From assembly GCA_905182985.1 (NCBI GenBank), contig CAJJDN010000128.1, positions 326,291-343,055 on the forward strand: a stretch of DNA of 16,765 nucleotides, in the 5' to 3' direction. The notes under the pieces were generated by a model that was not told the origin of the DNA, searched no databases, and was given only the letters and a program-made list of their open reading frames with translations. Made by a program: the position numbers and the translations under genes. Source of the DNA: Paramecium sonneborni. Lineage: Eukaryota; Ciliophora; Oligohymenophorea; Peniculida; Parameciidae. Within the stretch, counting starts at the first letter, position 1. Each line of letters begins with the position of its first letter. Shown one piece after another: positions 3,184 through 13,612 of the stretch.

Positions 3184-6100
3184 TCATTCTTTTTCTAGTA
3201 AAATTCTATAAGGTCTCACATCTTATGTCTTATTGACAACAAAATATTCTCCTTAAACTACTCGTTCTAATAAACATTTTGGTACTTATTTAATTACCTC
3301 TGGATTGCATCTAGTCATAAAATAAACTCTAAAATAATTTTCTCCCACTTTTACTTAATTAGCATAATCCCTACAAACACTTATTTTATTTGAAAAATAA
3401 ATCCCTTCCCCAACTTTTTTCTTGTATTTCTATCCAGATCCTCTTTATAAATTATTTTAGATTATTGAAGCTATATTTTACTAATTGGTTCCATGAAATA
3501 AAATTCTCCATTCATTTGGATTTCCATCCATTTTTATCCAATCTTAGTCATCTGAATATTTATTTATATTTAACCCAAAGCCATAGCAATTCTTAGGAAA
3601 ATAATAAATGTATTTTTTAGATTAAGGTCCACGATTATCATAATATCCAACCATTTTCCAATTCATATTAAATTTAGGATTAAAATCATCAATAGATAAT
3701 CCAATTATATTTTGATTATGCCGTTATTTTTTATAAGCATCCATATAATAATTATAGTATTCAATTTTACCTTTGCATATCTATTAAAAAAATTATAATT
3801 TATCATTATTTTCAGGAGAAAATATTTCATTTATATCTTCGAAAATATTAAAATCAATTATCAAACTACCTTCTCTAAACCCTAAAATATTTACTTTATC
3901 AATATTAATATTAAATATTTTTGATATTTGAGTCTTGAAATTACTAAGATAATCCTATCTTAATTACTCATTTTCCATGAATTTTTAATAATTTATTTCC
4001 TCAGTTTTAAATTGTAAACAGTATTAATTAGAACCATAAGCTCCTATTAATGATGTTAATGCACCAGGGTAAGATTTTTATATCCATATTAAATTTCTTT
4101 ATTAAGATTATAATAATGATTCTTTTAATACATATAACATTAATTCAAAATTGTTTATCTTTATATTTTACTTTATATGTTATATTTTTATTTCTTAACA
4201 TCTCTTATTTTATATTAATAAATTTAAATATTCTTATTCAATTTTATTAATCTAGTATTATTAATTTTAATTCTATTAAATCATGTCACTATAATTATTT
4301 AGTTTTTATAAAAGCTTGTTAATTTATTTATCCAAAGTATTAGAAGTTTATAGTGTATTATAAAACGATATTTTATAACGATCATGAACAGGCAAAGAAT
4401 TCAAATACTATTAATTTAAAATCTCTAGTGTTAATTTAATTCTTTTTATATCACTCTTAACTTTATCAAATTAATTTTTATTATTGTAGAGATCAAGATT
4501 TTATTATTTACATAAATTAACAAAATATTCTATTTCTTATTAAAGAATTTTAATATTATTTAATAGATTTTTTGATCCATCATTCATAAATATAATTCCC
4601 TATAAACTCTTATATTAAATCACTAATTTTCTTGCTTATTTAGAAGTCTATTGTAATTGTGATATTATTATCTTCTTTTTATTATAATTTACTATTTTTT
4701 CATTATTAAATAACCAATTTTTAGTGTATTGACTATCTTCAATCTTGATTATATTTGAAATTAATAATTATTTTATTTCTTATCTGATTATTGTTATAGA
4801 TGAAACGTAATCGATTTTATTTTAATACATAAAATCATTTCTTAAAATATCATCAGTATGTTCCACTTAAAAGTTTACTATTATAGATTCTTACTTTTGA
4901 TTTACATTTCTCTATTTTATATCGAGAAAAATGATTGATTTGAATTGAGAATTTTGAAAGTCTTACATCAAATTTTCATTATATTTTAATGAATTAAGTA
5001 ATTCTAAATAATAATCTTCAGGCTTAAGTGTATTAACAATTATTATTGAGGAACAGATTTTGAGTAAAAATATCATTTTTAAAATAAAGCTATTCTTATT
5101 TTAAATAAAATCTTCATTAAATTAGAATAATAAAATAAATTCATCATTTAATTAAGTTAAAACGACCTGCGTCAAATTCATATCAATATAATTAAATTGC
5201 TTTAAATTAAATCCTTCTTCCATTATGTATTTCATATTTTATTAATCATTTCCAATAACTCCAACAAAAGTTACAGATTATTATTGAATATATTCCAATT
5301 ATGACATAAGATATTTCAATAGATTTTCATCAAACTAAATATTTAATATATTTTTAGGATTATTAATTTAGAGAAATAAAGGAATCCTTGAAAAAAACTT
5401 TTATTTATACTATTCAATATTTTAAAGTTCTAATAACTAAGATTAAGGAAATTCATACTGGTTTACACATAATAATTAAAATGATGTTTAAACAATTGAT
5501 AAATTCAAAGATAAAATTCTATTTTAGATAATTTTTTTTAATTATTCAAATACAACTAATTATAATTTATCTATGTCACAAAATTTCGATTGGTTTTATT
5601 CTTTAATACAATTCTCCAATAATACCATTGGAGCAAAATTAATATTAGATGTAATTAAATCATCAATGTTAATAAACTCATAAGAGTCAAATTAATTGGT
5701 TATTTAATTGTTAAAATTAACAAATAGATATAAATTCTTTTATTCATCAATAAAAAATTAACTCTCTTTCTTAAATTTAATTGAAATAATTTTATCAAAA
5801 TTATAAGAACATATATTAAGATATTCTTATTCTTTTTAAAAAATTAAATCTTTTACTAGAAGATTATCAAAATCTGTTTTTTATTCATCATATAATTTAA
5901 ATTATTATTTTTTTTCATCCCAAATATGTGTTTTTAAATTAAAATCTTAAAAAATGAATTAATTAATTTAAGAATTATAATTTATATTTTAAATAGGTAT
6001 AGATTATTTTTGAGTTTATAAATTAACTATTTATCCTTGATATTAAAAGTTACTTCTTAATACTAATCATTTGGATAATTAAATATGTATAAAAAACCCA

Positions 6101-7430
6101 AAATATATTTATTATTTAATTTTTCTAGAAAATAAAATATTGGATTAGAAAAATAAGCAATAAATGTTTAAACTAAACTTTTTTGTTAATAAATAGAATG
6201 AATATAAAAGCCTTTAGGACTCTAAATTATAAATATTTAAGTTTCGTTATGATCAGAAGCAAAATAAAAAATAATTTCAATTTAATCATCTCCAAAATTT
6301 TATCTTGACAATTTATAAATATCATTCTCTGAAATGAATGATATAGAAGAATCATTACTTTAAAAATTAAATACTATATTGACTTTTTAAATGTAAAGAT
6401 ATTTAGATTCTTATATTTGAAAATTCTTGAGTAAAGTATTTAAAAATTTATTAGAATATTCTTAAGTAATTTAAATTAATCTAATTAGTATGATTTAAAT
6501 TTCCTTTTAAAGTGTTTCATTAAGTTAATACTATTCTTGAAGATCGTCTTTAATCTTAAATTTCTATTTTTATTGATCTTTAGAATTAAATTATTGCATA
6601 AGAACTTAAAGATTATCTTTAATAATTTAATCATATTTCACTTAGCTTATTCCATAAGTTTTGAACATTTGCTATTCAATTGATAAAACATCAAATTTGA
6701 TATTATGTTCTATCTCTTACCAATTAATTTTGAACTATTATAAGGCATCGATTGATAAAGATATGGTTTATAAAATTTAATCTAAAATGATGTTTTCTTT
6801 TTTAAATGTTTTTTCAACAATGACTTGTATTAATTTATAAGTTTATTCTTCCATTTCATCTAAATCAAAATCACTTAGTAATCCTGTTGAATATAATAAA
6901 AATGAATTCGAAAAATTTTAAGATATTACAATTTTCGATTGGAAAAGCTTAGTAATTACTTTTGATTAGAAGGGTTTTGTTTAACAAATTTTATTCTCAA
7001 TTTGAGGTTATGTTAAATCAAAATTATATTATTTTAATCCAAAACAAATATTAACCATTTTAGATAGATCTAAAAAAATCTTCATCATCATCCTACACAA
7101 TTGTAATTATTCATCAAGGATGGGTATTAAAAATACAATAAATAAGAGATCTTAATTGTAACATAACATAATTTAACATGCACCTTCTAATTTAGATTCT
7201 TGAAATAAGAATTCATTTTTTAAGATATCACTTATTAATACTTAAACTTCCTTTCTTTATCCTAATAAACTATACAGTAGAAGTTTTTCTTAATTTAATC
7301 TTCTTAGACATTATTACAAATTTTAATAATCTGTTTTAACTTAAGGTTAAGTCTGAGAATCTATATTGTTTTCAAGATCTTCTATATAAAACACAGTTAC
7401 TTGCTCTAAATTAGAATCAAGTTCATTCAT
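3184..7430 (-). CDS. Large protein (about 1403 aa) with C-terminal PARP-like ADP-ribosyltransferase domain
   Basis: With TAA/TAG as Gln the minus strand is open from ATG 7430-7428 to TGA 3186-3184, apart from one frame change near 6060. Removing a 35-nt GT..AG segment (6063-6097) gives exactly 1404 codons. The C-terminal ~200 residues resemble the PARP/ART fold: EWRILFHGTN (His about 1301), then VGEGIYFSNKISVCRDYA (Tyr about 1333), then VVQGEYFVVNKTQDVRPYRI (Glu about 1383). In PARPs the His and Tyr bind NAD+ and the Glu in the E-Y-x-V-x-x-x-x-Q-V context is catalytic, so an H-Y-E triad is present. That predicts NAD+-dependent ADP-ribose transfer to a protein or nucleic acid. The segment before it (YYFPKNCYGFGLNI, DDQDWIKMDGNPNEW) fits an ART subtype I recall in ciliates and some fungi. 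The ~1170 N-terminal residues are Gln/Asn/Lys-rich, largely helical-looking and unrecognised; I see no zinc finger, BRCT, WGR or membrane span. It is soluble by appearance; its location is unknown. Confidence 0.85.
6063..6097 (-). other. Candidate 35-nt intron, or a retained IES-like insertion, in the ART gene
   Basis: The upstream frame (…EKLNNKYIL) and the downstream frame (LRSNFQYQGQIVNLQ…) differ by one. The downstream frame carries a TGA at 6069-6067, so the junction must lie here. A segment starting GTTTTTTATACA and ending GATTAG is 35 nt, removes the TGA and restores one frame. It is longer than the other introns here and begins GTT rather than GTA. A TA-bounded 29-nt segment (6063-6091) would also restore the frame, as a Paramecium internal eliminated sequence would, but its ends match the TAYAG consensus poorly. 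Confidence 0.5.
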
Positions 7431-8124
7431 TTTTCAGTATAAATACTATTAATAATATAAATTGAAGTGATAGAATTAGCAATTTTATTTATTATATATT
7501 TTGATGATTTCTGGTATATTCTAAATTTATTAATGATTTTTTTCTTCTGGAATAAATTTTTATGTTTATTTTATTAAACTGATTAAAGTTCTAATTAAAT
7601 ATCATTTATATTTACACAAATCATTTAATTCATATGAATAAATAATGATGTAGAAAGCAGAATGACATAATTAATTTTGAATTGGTTATTTTTCAATATT
7701 ATGTTTAAAAAACAATTTTATCTATATATAATTAATTTTTTAAAGGTCATTTAATTAGTATTTTATATACTAAATTTTTTAATTTGAATTATCTCATAGA
7801 TCGATTTCAATAATAAATAATTAATTCTTCATAATTGTTTATATATTAAAAATTTAGTTCAACATTTTCATAACTATTTAAATTAATTTATTCTACATTA
7901 TTTAATTATCATTAATTATTTCTAATATAAAAATATCTATTTTAAGCAAAAAAAATTATTTTTGTTTTTTAACCCATTAATCTCTTGAATATACAAATTA
8001 ATTTATTTTTTCTATAAATTTTAAATAATTCAACTCATAAATCAATAAATATTTTAAATTAATAACTTTTTTATTGCTTCTTTCATCTAGAGCAATACTA
8101 GAATTTAGAATTTGAATAATTTTT
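7431..8124. other. AT-rich intergenic region upstream of the ART gene
   Basis: Low-complexity A/T sequence with stops in all frames and no protein-like stretch I could support. It lies 5' of the minus-strand ART gene and should contain its promoter, but no conserved element is identifiable. Confidence 0.4.
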
Positions 8125-9709: not shown

Positions 9710-10010
9710 TTTTAATTTATAATAATATCAATAGATAATTAATTGAAATATTTCTAAATAAAAGAGTATCAAAAAATAATTATAGATAAATAATCTATGA
9801 AATCTATTGATAATTAAGAGACTAACTAGAAAGATTAAGTACTATTAGGAATATAATAAATTTAAAAATATTAAGTTAAAAAAAGAGCTTAAATAAACAA
9901 ATAACATAAATGAATAGAAGGCAGGATAGACAGGTTAAAGTAATACGAATAATTTGAGATTAAATTAATATGTATTATTTGTTTTCTCTAATGCACTGTA
10001 TAATATTATT
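9710..10010. other. Short AT-rich spacer
   Basis: This separates the ATPase stop from the next minus-strand gene start. On the plus strand at about 9800-9970 one frame reads as a Lys/Asn/Gln-rich stretch (for example NINEQKAGQTGQSNTNN). It runs on as the antisense of the ATPase C-terminus, with no start or domain, so it is not called as a gene. Confidence 0.35.
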
Positions 10011-13000
10011 TCAATTAGCCTTTAATTTGGCTTTGTTAATCTTTTAATTAATAGAAGTGATTTTTTTAACAAGAATTGGTTTGATGAACATAATTAGTAC
10101 AGCTCTCCAAACTATACTACCAAATCCAATAGCAATACAAATAAGCCTTTTTATATTAAAATTTTAAATTACCATTATTAAAGAGTTAAACCATTAAATG
10201 TTTATATTAATTTTCCTCCATATTCCACAATGATATATTGAAGCATTCCAATAATCATTATTGAAATGTAAATCATCCAAGAACCACAAAATCCTTTAAA
10301 GATATTGATCTCTAATTGAACCATACGAGAATTTATCAAATTAAACAATGTTGTAATTACAAAAATGTTGAATACCATTAAAGACTAGATATAGATTAAA
10401 ATAAATATACTTAATCTACAAATAAGATGCATACAGCTATGATATAGACAGATAATATAATAATGTGGATATAAAGAAGAATATCTATTAAAAACCCTTT
10501 TTTATTAAGAGGCTTTTAGTATTTAGTAGTTGGTTTACAATTAGACAAAGCAAATGAAGAAATTAAATCAGTTATAAATTTAATCCAAACAAATTATAGT
10601 GGAGTTATTATAATAGTATCACTAATAGTTAATGAAACGATTAAAATAATAATTAATGATAAATGAGTGGTAATTTAATATTGAATTAGTCTTTTAATAG
10701 AATCCAATAGATTTCTAGCTAAAATGATCCCTAGATAAATATAATGAAGACTATTATCCAACAAAAAAATCCCTGAATTCTCTTTAACTAATTCTGCTTC
10801 TGAACTTCCTATACAATAACTTACATCAGCCTATTTTAGACTATCAACTAATTTATAAAATTAAATTAATATTTACTATTATGTAATGAATGACCAGTTA
10901 CTCCTACAACATGTCCTAGTTATTGTAATTCTTTAACCATCTAGTAATGTACTTCGGGAGGTGCTCTACTAATAGCACAAATATCTTCTAATTCTTTAAT
11001 AAAATTTTCTGTTTTATTTTTTAATTATTCTGTAAAATAATTTCCTTCTGTAATTTTTGAGTCTTAAGACATAATCCCAGTCTTTTCAGCTATGTTCTTT
11101 ATAAACTTTTCATTATCACCTCCAATCAAAATAACTTTCACTCCTGCTTATTAAATTTCTTCAACAACCTTTTTCCCTTCACTTTTCAATTTAGATGAGA
11201 TTAAAAAAAAACCTAATAATGTCAAATTTTCTGTTTCATATTTAAAATTGTTCTTCTTCATCTATTCTTCAATATTTTCATTTTTTAAATCTATATCTCT
11301 AAATGCTATTGCTATAATTACACCAGCATTTTAACTTAATTACTTTAAATTATATTCTATCTTATTCTTTACAAAATCATTCATAGGAATTATCCCATCT
11401 TTTAAACTATAAAAACTATTTGATGATTTCAATATTACATCATTTGCTCCCTTCAGACAAATTCTGCTATTTTGAATAATGCATCCCTAATTAAATAAAT
11501 CTAAATTCTTACTCTTATCCTTCTAGCACTTGTATAAGGGATTAAATGAGTCACTTTACTTTTTCTCTCTTTTACTTCAATTTGTAATTCTTAGGATAGC
11601 TAATAAAATGCTTCTTCTGTTATAGAATTTATTGAATCTTTTTCTGGATTGTTATTTATAAAACAGCAATCAATTAAGGCTTATTTAAATTCTTATGGAA
11701 ATTGGTCTAATGTCGATTAAGTTAATTGTCCATCAGTATCATTTAGAAAACTATCAACAACCATTTTATTTTCATCTAGAGATGATGTACCAATAATTAA
11801 CTTGATTATTAAAAAATGAAAAATACTTTATTCATGAATGGCAAATTTTCTAATGTTTATAACATTCTAACTAAATTTTTTGAATTTAACATCTTCTTTA
11901 AAGTTTAAGCTTATTGAATTTTATAATGATTTATCAATGCTTTTGATGAATTCCATGATAATAAAACTATAATAAAGTTCAAAATATTCGATAATGTACA
12001 ATATCCATTTAAAATTGAGTTTTAATATTGAACCATATATCTGATCAGTACCATAATGATTACAATTAGAGAACCTAAAAACCCTATTATTTCCATTTTA
12101 GATGAAATATTTTCTACTGATTTATAGATAACTGGTTCTCCCTCTTCAAATTTTCCCAATAAACTTTATAATTTAAAACCATGAACATTTTCACCAACTG
12201 CCAAAACCAATAATTTGCCCTAACCTTTCAATACTTCGCTTTCTGAATAGACAAAATGACTACTACTCAAAGAAGTTGGCTCAATCTCTTGATTTCCCTC
12301 TTCTATTGTAAATTTAGGAACACCCAAAATCTCTCCTGTTAAAAAGCCTTCCTAAATAAATAATAATTAAATATATATATACATAAATACATAATTTAGA
12401 TTATTCCACGATTAAACCGTCAACATACACTTTATCATACTACTTTAAAATCACAACATCTCCAACTACTAAATCCCTAGCTATTATAGTCTACTCATTT
12501 CCATTCCTCAAAACTACGACTTATTTTTATTATTCATCTTGAATATATGAATTTTTTTTGTTACTATCATTGATTTTTATCTTGGTTAGGTTGTTATAAA
12601 TTTACTTGAATTGCTGATAATATTATCGGATTCAAAGAAATTATTACAAATATAATAACCCTTTCTATCCATTCATTTGTAAAAACTCCTTCGGTTGATA
12701 GGTAGGTTAAAATAAATGCCATTAGAGACATACATTAAAAAAATATTGTTTTTGGTCTCTGCTATATTATATTCATTATTTACAATTATTAGACTCCAAA
12801 TCTTACTCATTGAATTAAGAGGTATGAATCTCTCCTTCTCGTTGATTCCAAATACTTATTATCTTATACTTATCTCATTATCTCCCAATCCTTGATTTAT
12901 ATTAGATTTTAGAGATTCTACAAACTGCTTTGTTGATTTTAACTCATCCATACAATTTTCATCCTCTTTATTTAAAGCAGAAGTTAATATTTGTTGCAAT

Positions 13001-13023
13001 TATCTTTTGGATACTTTAAACAT
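10011..13023 (-). CDS. Catalytically dead P2B (plasma-membrane Ca2+) P-type ATPase homologue, 933 aa, nine exons
   Basis: The gene runs from ATG 13023 to TGA 10013-10011. Removing eight small introns leaves 2802 nt, exactly 934 codons. The fold is clear: VFGIN near 57-61; M1 about 86-103 and M2 about 112-130; A-domain LVVGDVVILKQYDKVYVDG and LTGEI at 202-206; M4 region; NLVRMLQTLEN before the P-domain; N-domain KGAND at 481-485; P-domain VKVILIGGDNE and QADVSYCIG; M5-M10, with PLQFVWIKFITDL as M6. The catalytic residues are replaced. PEGLP before M4 is SWNSS (330-334). The DKTGTLT phosphorylation loop is IGTSSLD (376-382), without the acceptor Asp. TGDGTND is TGHSLHN (666-672), losing both Mg2+-binding Asp. 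DP in the DPxR motif is SS, and SPxDK is PPEVH. The M6 Asn is Lys762. TGE and KGA remain. Active PMCAs pump Ca2+ with calmodulin control; this copy cannot form the phospho-Asp, and it lacks a long C-terminal calmodulin tail. The intact nine-exon frame implies a maintained pseudoenzyme, perhaps regulatory (inferred). Confidence 0.9.
10147..10172 (-). other. Intron 8 of the ATPase-like gene, 26 nt
   Basis: Starts GTAATTTAAA and ends TAAAAAG. It joins LTLQQW to LICIAIGFGSIVWRA, matching the last two membrane helices of the family. The acceptor is AAG. Confidence 0.85.
10385..10410 (-). other. Intron 7 of the ATPase-like gene, 26 nt
   Basis: Starts GTATATTTAT and ends TATCTAG. It joins CILFVDQ to SLMVFNIFVITTLFNLINSR, the conserved M8 neighbourhood of PMCAs. 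The unspliced frame ends in TGA. Confidence 0.9.
10848..10876 (-). other. Intron 6 of the ATPase-like gene, 29 nt
   Basis: Starts GTAAATATTA and ends AAATTAG, phase 1. It joins GHSLHN to IDSLKQADVSYCIG, directly after the altered GDGTND motif. Confidence 0.88.
11487..11512 (-). other. Intron 5 of the ATPase-like gene, 26 nt
   Basis: Starts GTAAGAATTT and ends TAATTAG. Its removal joins YTSARRIR to GCIIQNSRICLKGAND, recovering the N-domain KGA motif. Without splicing, a TGA follows within 25 codons. Confidence 0.88.
11801..11826 (-). other. Intron 4 of the ATPase-like gene, 26 nt
   Basis: Starts GTATTTTTCA and ends AATCAAG. Its removal joins PFMNK to LIIGTSSLDENKM. It sits exactly at the phosphorylation loop, so its boundaries decide how the missing DKTG motif reads. 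No other splice choice seen here yields DKTG. Confidence 0.75.
12352..12382 (-). other. Intron 3 of the ATPase-like gene, 31 nt
   Basis: Starts GTATATATAT and ends TATTTAG. Its removal gives EQSKLCIYEGFLTGEI, which aligns gap-free with the usual DESSLTGES region. A GTA eight bases upstream would instead create a TGA at the junction. Confidence 0.85.
12581..12605 (-). other. Intron 2 of the ATPase-like gene, 25 nt
   Basis: Starts GTAAATTTAT and ends ACCAAG. Its removal joins the end of M2 (ILSAIQ) to IKINDSNKKN and avoids a TGA. The 3' end is AAG rather than TAG. Confidence 0.8.
12762..12783 (-). other. Intron 1 of the ATPase-like gene, 22 nt
   Basis: Starts GTAAATAATG and ends ATATAG. Its removal joins KIWSLII to QRPKTIFFQ and restores the M1 frame, which otherwise reaches a TGA. 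Confidence 0.85.
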
Positions 13024-13612
13024 AATTAAAATATATTTAGTTATGAATAAACAAAATTTCCGCTTAAATTTTAATTTTTTTTTCTTAGATGAGATTAGAT
13101 ATTATTTTAATACTTAGTATTTCAATATTTAATTTAACTATACTTAACATTTGATGGAAACTTTAAAAATTACATTATTATAAATAACTATTAAGTTTTT
13201 TATTTCATATTTTTTAGGACCTATTTTTAATATAAAAAATGTTATGTTTTAAAAATATTTAATATTTAATTAAGGAAACAATGTTTTTTTGAATTAAAAG
13301 CATTCTGAAAATCCATTGAATTTATTTTAATAAGACATTTATGAATAAAAATGGTTTAATCTTTACTTTTTGCTTATTGGAATTTGATTAATAATATGCT
13401 AAACTATTTCCATTAAAATTATTGCATTTACTCAAATAATTGCAAAAATCAATAAGAGTTGCATAAAAAAGGGAATAACATTATAAAATTAATTAACTAT
13501 TTAAATAAGATTGAATTTAATCAAAGAAATTTTATAAAATTATAACAAGAAATCGAAGGGCTGATTTTGATCTTAAGAGATACAAAAATGAAATAGTAAT
13601 CTTATGAATAAA
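13024..13612. other. AT-rich spacer between divergent genes
   Basis: This lies 5' of the minus-strand ATPase-like gene and 5' of the plus-strand degenerate gene. It is A/T-rich, with no supported gene and no recognisable promoter element. Near 13510-13612 one plus frame is weakly protein-like (LQQEIEGLILILRDTKMK), so the degenerate gene may begin somewhat earlier than its annotated start. Confidence 0.4.

Follow-up and report, generated by a model that had tools for sequence, protein, structure and literature searches.

The defining feature of P-type pumps is a phosphorylated aspartate; the Asp residues of the GDGxND motif bind Mg, and the Glu of the PEGLP motif in membrane segment M4 binds Ca. 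Here we describe a gene on the minus strand, at 10011..13023, of a 16,765-nucleotide (nt) stretch, positions 326291–343055, of Paramecium sonneborni contig CAJJDN010000128.1 (the window, meaning the whole stretch of DNA analysed). By whole-length homology and fold it belongs to the P2B (PMCA) lineage of P-type ATPases. Like the P2B Ca-ATPases (PMCA; ACA in plants), its product displays near-whole-length homology, the E1-E2_ATPase and Cation_ATPase_C domains and a predicted P-type fold, but it is devoid of DKTGT, GDGxND and PEGLP, and its C-terminal tail is short. Pseudo-versions of P-type ATPase bodies have precedent in Plasmodium guanylyl cyclase beta and Caenorhabditis elegans CATP-1, as far as the parts of the sources covered here go. 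The P4-ATPase-like domain of the cyclase has been called degenerated (PMC6592433), but it belongs to the P4 type and forms part of a cyclase fusion, whereas the window protein is a stand-alone P2B member. For CATP-1, a pump-independent role was suggested (Ruaud and Bessereau, as cited in PMC11631496), although a later study, partly at odds with this, found that pump activity matters in another assay (PMC11631496); furthermore, CATP-1 is a Na,K-pump alpha subunit in which the catalytic aspartate, D409, is present. In Paramecium, PMCA18/19 were reported, in the portion of the study covered, to precipitate with a ciliary Ca channel (PMC4588038), so that such complexes exist, which says nothing about the window gene. 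A review devoted to unanswered questions about P-type ATPases (PMC10654040) makes no mention of pseudo-pumps in the parts covered. No P2B pseudoenzyme that stands alone, is duplicated and is under selection was found in the open-licence literature, within which the suggestion of the initial annotation that none has been described stands uncontradicted.

The window protein corresponds to P. sonneborni record P0001 (100% identity over the query). Plant ACA8, its best solved relative, aligns over query residues 21–915 (E 1.1e-66), and the best solved matches of the predicted structure are PMCA chains, with mouse PMCA on top, in agreement with the end-to-end P-type fold noted initially; the fold is predicted to be intact and most like PMCA in the E1 state. 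In Pfam, PF00122 (E1-E2_ATPase), PF00689 (Cation_ATPase_C) and PF13246 (Cation_ATPase) are above the cut-off and PF00702 (Hydrolase) is below its own; beyond the PF00689 match the protein continues for only some 27 residues, and Pfam detected no family of the calmodulin-binding or any other tail type. The phosphorylation loop reads IGTSSLD in place of DKTGTLT (amino acids (aa) 375–381; 11774..11794, on the minus strand like every feature of the gene given below) and is one residue shorter than in motif-keeping paralogues (IIG-TSSLDENKM versus IVDKTGTLTENRM in P0004). GDGTND is replaced by GHSLHN (aa 666–671; 10878..10895) and SPxDK by PPEVH (aa 644–648; 10947..10961; RPEDK in the aligned relative). 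Alignment confirms these three readings of the initial annotation, but not its reading of the DP of DPxR as SS, since the aligned residues are SK of ISSKLK, giving SKLK (aa 566–569; 11184..11195) for the DPLR of P0005. Two further changes had gone unmentioned. The M4 stretch SWNSSKALI (aa 329–337; 11932..11958) replaces PEGLP, and in M6, which reads WIKFITD (aa 759–765; 10567..10587), the Asn of WVNLIMD has become Lys while the Asp is kept. The match of the M4 columns depends on the alignment: it is ungapped, with Lys at the PEGLP Glu, in one and includes a seven-residue gap in another. The view that every key motif is replaced is correct for DKTGT, GDGxND, DPxR and SPxDK, but goes too far for the TGE of the A domain (TGEILG, aa 202–204; 12331..12339), the GDN of TGDN (here GGDN, aa 590–593; 11112..11123) and the lysine of the N-domain KGA (aa 480–482; 11445..11453), all of which are retained. 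With its catalytic residues lost, the gene encodes, judged by sequence, a putative pseudoenzyme.

A profile built from the first eight relatives delineates a subfamily of nine proteins with E-values of at most 1e-292 among the matches listed, the next match being at 2e-114. The search, against a database clustered at 90%, scored the 7995 candidates sharing most words and retained the best 120 of 2717 matches. Among the matches listed, all nine members come from the P. aurelia complex (five from P. sonneborni, two from P. tetraurelia and one each from P. pentaurelia and P. octaurelia), and no ortholog of the window gene in another species was found. Motifs were compared in an alignment (A3) of 45 of the 232 listed proteins; P0008 and P0121 end early, and motifs past their ends were left out of the counts. 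PEGLP is gone in 9/9 members, PEG being present in 36/36 other rows of A3, and the corresponding M4 positions read SKAL in five members, SKTM in P0003, TKIL in P0006 and YETI in P0007 and P0121. TGE is kept in all nine, as is a K or R followed by G at KGA. By contrast, DKTGT is intact in four of the nine (P0004, P0005, P0006 and P0008) and GDGxND in only two of the seven readable members (P0004 and P0005). P0003–P0006 retain the Asn in M6, which has been replaced by Lys in P0001 and P0002 and by His in P0007. The closest motif-keeping relatives, P. sonneborni P0004 and P. pentaurelia P0005, are 59% and 56% identical to the window protein and likewise have SKALI for PEGLP, and the introns of P0004 correspond to those of the window gene; both differ from it in keeping DKTGTLT and GDGTND, and P0004 also in its tighter constraint (see below).

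Two kinds of change have affected DKTGT. In P0001, P0002 and P0003, hereafter the dead copies, it is altered together with the one-residue deletion, whereas in the P. tetraurelia/P. octaurelia pair P0007 and P0121 it is altered by substitution with the Asp kept (DQTSILT and DETGILT). The two P. sonneborni paralogues thus share the loop deletion with the window protein, but not its letters (IID-AQSLY in P0002, where an Asp remains beside the deletion, and IIC-TESLY in P0003). Orthologues with the same substitutions, which the initial annotation proposed to seek, are therefore matched in part by these paralogues and not by the pair from other species, which altered the motif independently. The dead copies are joined at 100/100 in the tree, P0004 joins them at 98/99, and P0006, P0007 and P0121 are joined at 100/100. 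Parsimony on this tree requires two changes for each of DKTGT and GDGxND, with DKTGT altered twice independently; four of the 12 inner branches are weak, two of them at the base of the family, seven rows are flagged for unusual composition, and a long branch leads to the family. Since all three dead copies share the loop deletion, the loop was lost before their duplications. The order of events reconstructed from these sequences is that PEGLP is missing in the entire subfamily and DKTGT was altered later in two lineages, the putatively dead form being duplicated into three copies within P. sonneborni. The chances are evenly balanced that the subfamily, known only from the P. aurelia complex, ceased Ca pumping first, that erosion of its ATP machinery followed, independently in two or more lineages, and that the fully dead form was copied to three P. 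sonneborni genes and kept. Of the remaining members, P0006 (C92) represents a half-way state, with DKTGTLT kept and CNGLND for GDGxND, and P. tetraurelia P0007 is further along, with DQTSILT and CDGENN. The clade-A relatives P0008 (P. tetraurelia, 575 aa) and P0121 (P. octaurelia, 662 aa) end early in the public models, which may reflect truncated genes or annotation errors.

The ratio of nonsynonymous to synonymous rates (omega) was estimated with our own GY94/F3x4 code under genetic code table 6 rather than with PAML; the branch models used 910 of 937 codon columns, 27 gapped columns being dropped. The pair P0001/P0002 has an omega of 0.229 at a synonymous divergence (dS) of 0.37. On the tips leading to P0001, P0002 and P0003 omega is 0.19, 0.21 and 0.35, and a value of 1 is rejected for each, with twice the log-likelihood difference (2dlnL) equal to 36, 49 and 24, respectively; the dN/dS comparison proposed initially thus comes out in favour of constraint on the window gene. 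The dead clade as a whole has an omega of 0.28 versus 0.14 for the P0004 and P0006 branches, and the two-class model is better than a single ratio (2dlnL 25); with the two separated, the values are 0.14 for P0004 and 0.13 for P0006, and the difference between P0004 and the dead clade has a 2dlnL of about 8. The two canonical PMCA genes that lie near P0003 and P0004 display an omega of 0.027 over 529 codons (86 of the 615 codons of the control exon were dropped at its ends), and a mean of 0.05 is given for P. aurelia ohnologues in the part of the source covered (PMC10195154). In each of the three pairwise comparisons of dead copies, all exon gaps have lengths divisible by three, unlike the intron gaps; of the seven exon gaps that separate P0003 from P0004, six are likewise in frame and the seventh, of 2 nt, falls at the donor of the ninth intron of P0004. 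Finally, no TGA codon was observed where a neutral simulation starting from the present-day sequences predicts 6.2, 8.7 and 13.5 on the three dead tips. Because the branch omegas reject 1 yet exceed those of P0004 and P0006, constraint on the dead genes is relaxed but not ended, being far from neutral and also far from that of a housekeeping pump. The gene has been maintained by selection after the loss of its motifs. A fresh pseudogene is ruled out for the window gene by the branch omega, the in-frame exon gaps and the zero TGA count. Corresponding introns, in-frame exon gaps and an omega well below 1, on the branch of the gene itself and in the dead clade, mark what appears from its sequence to be a maintained pseudo-pump rather than a product of recent decay, as the initial annotation had proposed.

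The same figures bear on the most serious alternative, a slowly dying gene family in which function is gone, residual constraint stems only from toxic misfolding or recent ancestry and the frame has not yet been broken. It would account for a dead-clade omega at twice the P0004 and P0006 values and tenfold that of the canonical pair, for the poor constraint even in members that keep DKTGT, and for the two relatives in other species with early-ending public models. However, the loop loss is older than two duplications and every tip since then rejects an omega of 1, the expected TGA codons are absent from all three tips, and the dead copies have both intact intron ends and exclusively in-frame exon gaps. 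We regard this alternative as unlikely, although it retains appreciable weight.

The contrast in constraint between domains is the sole pointer to where the remaining function sits. Regional omegas were estimated with branch lengths and kappa fixed at the global fit, the branch of the loop loss being counted with the dead clade. In the dead clade, omega is 0.18–0.23 in the membrane segments, 0.26 in the C-terminal tail and 0.31–0.33 in the N terminus and the A, N and P domains (N, 0.33). On the P0004 and P0006 branches, the tightest regions are M5–M6 (0.09) and P1, P2 and M7–M10 (0.11), and the loosest is M3–M4 (0.18). The dead-clade value exceeds its counterpart on those branches most in P2 (about 2.9-fold), P1 (2.8) and N (2.2); the factor is 2.0 in both M5–M6 and M7–M10, and declines to 1.9 in A, 1.5 in M1–M2 and 1.25 in M3–M4. 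We also scored, for variation among the dead copies, columns that are invariant among the other six members wherever at least four of these reach them. Such columns vary in 28/69 cases in P2, 18/46 in N and 7/19 in P1, and in 20/64 in M7–M10, 10/38 in M5–M6, 5/23 in M3–M4 and 7/44 in A. The pattern, a modest contrast drawn from sequence comparison, agrees with loss of the ATP-handling parts and better preservation of the membrane body and the A domain. Little in it favours a nucleotide sensor, in which the N domain would bind ATP or ADP without hydrolysis and relay its state to the membrane domain. The KGA lysine is kept, every member having a basic residue in front of Gly at this site, and the N domain is largely of high confidence in the predicted structure, but this domain is among the least constrained in the dead clade, both by omega and by the column test, and the idea is improbable. 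A passive pathway or a non-Ca transporter, whose membrane domain would conduct or flip a substrate without ATP, has a similarly small chance of being correct. The lowest dead-clade omegas are indeed found in the membrane segments, the M4 stretch that replaces PEGLP is polar, and the dead clade has fixed a change of G to W at residue 330 in M4. Nevertheless, a cation path looks unlikely because former Glu/Asn positions are occupied by Lys in M4 (in one alignment; the other has a gap), His in M5 and Lys in M6. Nothing resembling a channel was seen, although no search was aimed at such features. The weakest alternative, an assembly error, wrong splicing or a micronuclear insert masking a normal pump, can draw on the report, in a source covered in part, that the P. 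sonneborni assembly holds micronucleus-derived sequence, but is barely credible given that paralogues on two other contigs share the gene structure and the one-residue loop deletion, the frame is open throughout and DKT, GDG and PEG occur in no minus-strand frame of 9901–13100, which argues against a normal motif hidden in that region.

Our preferred explanation, held tentatively and a little short of an even chance, is that this P2B homologue without DKTGT, GDGxND and PEGLP, held open by purifying selection, acts in the membrane as a non-pumping regulator that partners active pumps or those subfamily members in which the ATP motifs are kept. With the acceptor aspartate absent, no phosphoenzyme would be formed and ATP-driven Ca transport would hence be absent. 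The membrane domain, where dead-clade omega is lowest, would be the working part and could bind partners that are also bound by live pumps, or the live pumps themselves, while the TGE loop of the A domain would be kept for its shape. Several observations weigh against this regulatory role, which we infer from sequence comparisons. Compared with the dead clade, omega is half as high in P0004 and P0006 and one tenth as high in the canonical PMCA pair; M5–M6 and M7–M10 have loosened about twofold relative to P0004 and P0006, much like the A domain, and nearly a third (20/64) of the otherwise invariant M7–M10 columns vary among the dead copies. In addition, the former active site has acquired no fixed new motif, as its letters are not the same in P0001, P0002 and P0003, and an Asp remains next to the deletion in P0002. 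Finally, given the early ends of P0008 and P0121, the subfamily could be dispensable in the species that carry them.

The coordinates, strand, nine exons and open frame of the initial annotation were all reproduced under table 6. The gene ends with TGA, and its eight introns correspond across the five genes compared (P0001, P0002, P0003, P0004 and P0006), P0004 having a ninth near its end. Exon 1 (12784..13023; aa 1–80) encodes the cytosolic N terminus and is followed by intron 1 (12759..12783), common to all five genes in position and phase. In the public model P0001 this intron is 25 nt long and ends in CAG, three bases later than in the earlier splice (22 nt); with 25 nt, P0001 aligns there without gaps to P0002–P0007, P0008 being one residue longer. 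Among the paralogues, P0002 has the 25-nt length, whereas the intron is 22 nt long in P0003, P0004 and P0006. The 25-nt form is likely for the window gene on this alignment, which would give a protein of 932 aa; the 934 codons counted initially hold for the earlier splice (933 aa and the stop), and the eight introns stand, with lengths that would be 25–31 rather than 22–31 nt under the 25-nt form. Exon 2 (12606..12758; aa 81–131) contains the predicted M1 and start of M2, and exon 3 (12383..12580; aa 132–197) the end of M2 and the start of the A domain; between them, intron 2 (12581..12605) ends in CAAG rather than the TAG usual in Paramecium, as it does in P0002, P0003 and P0004 but not in P0006. 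Intron 3 (12352..12382; 31 nt) precedes exon 4 (11827..12351; aa 198–372), with the A domain, M3, M4 and the stalk, and intron 4 (11801..11826), which also ends in CAAG and has AAG at that end in all five genes. The phosphorylation loop and the start of the N domain lie in exon 5 (11513..11800; aa 373–468), and the N domain and the second half of the P domain in exon 6 (10877..11486; aa 469–671 plus one base), with intron 5 (11487..11512; 26 nt) between them and intron 6 (10848..10876; 29 nt) after. Exon 7 (10411..10847) covers the hinge and predicted M5–M7, and intron 7 (10385..10410; 26 nt) separates it from exon 8 (10173..10384; predicted M8–M9). Intron 8 (10147..10172) ends in AAAG, with AAG also in P0002, P0003 and P0004 but not in P0006, and exon 9 (10011..10146) encodes predicted M10, a short basic tail and the TGA. 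Thus, P0002–P0004 match the window gene at all three AAG acceptors (introns 2, 4 and 8) and P0006 at one; this sharing identifies them as an old feature, not decay.

Upstream of the gene, 13024..13403 (minus strand), a candidate promoter only, is about 74% identical to the corresponding stretch of P0002 over 382 alignment columns; P0001/P0003 align at 71% over 591 columns and P0002/P0003 at 80% over 202. The aligned upstream DNA may be a conserved promoter, a piece of a neighbouring gene or mere shared ancestry. Homology between P0001 and P0002 reaches a few hundred bases past the gene on both sides. A block or whole-genome duplication as the source of this pair is not supported, because the only open reading frames (ORFs) with a match in the 18 kb around P0002 were those that overlap the gene or its edges (window ORFs of at least 70 aa, E 1e-8). 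P0003 and P0004 (L023 and L025; C72 and C97) each have, no more than about 4 kb away, a canonical PMCA neighbour in which PEGLP, DKTGTLT and GDGTND are all present; on these segments, dS is 1.33 for P0003/P0004 versus 0.56 for the adjacent canonical pair. An extra copy of P0004 exon 1, 100% identical in protein, is located about 1.2 kb upstream of that gene (L026:5195-5434) and may be a local duplication or an assembly artefact. Elsewhere in the window, 3184-7433 on the minus strand comprises long open stretches, probably of one multi-exon gene; close to its 3′ end, the frame 3184-6066 encodes a PARP catalytic domain (PF00644, E 1.8e-8). On the plus strand, 825-2342 is an open frame of 505 residues (table 6) with no Pfam match. 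Pfam searches of eight other window ORFs detected the PARP domain only, and no RNA genes were found in the window at the gathering threshold.

If the subfamily did cease Ca pumping first and lose its ATP machinery later, with the fully dead form copied and kept, the three P. sonneborni genes would be P-type ATPase pseudoenzymes that stand alone and have a conserved, non-pumping task in the membrane. The paralogues of one genome, ranging from motif-intact to dead, with the losses placed on a tree and selection estimated per branch, would constitute a natural test of what a pump body does without pumping. The question is testable because Paramecium permits silencing by RNA interference and its swimming reports ciliary Ca, as far as the literature covered indicates.

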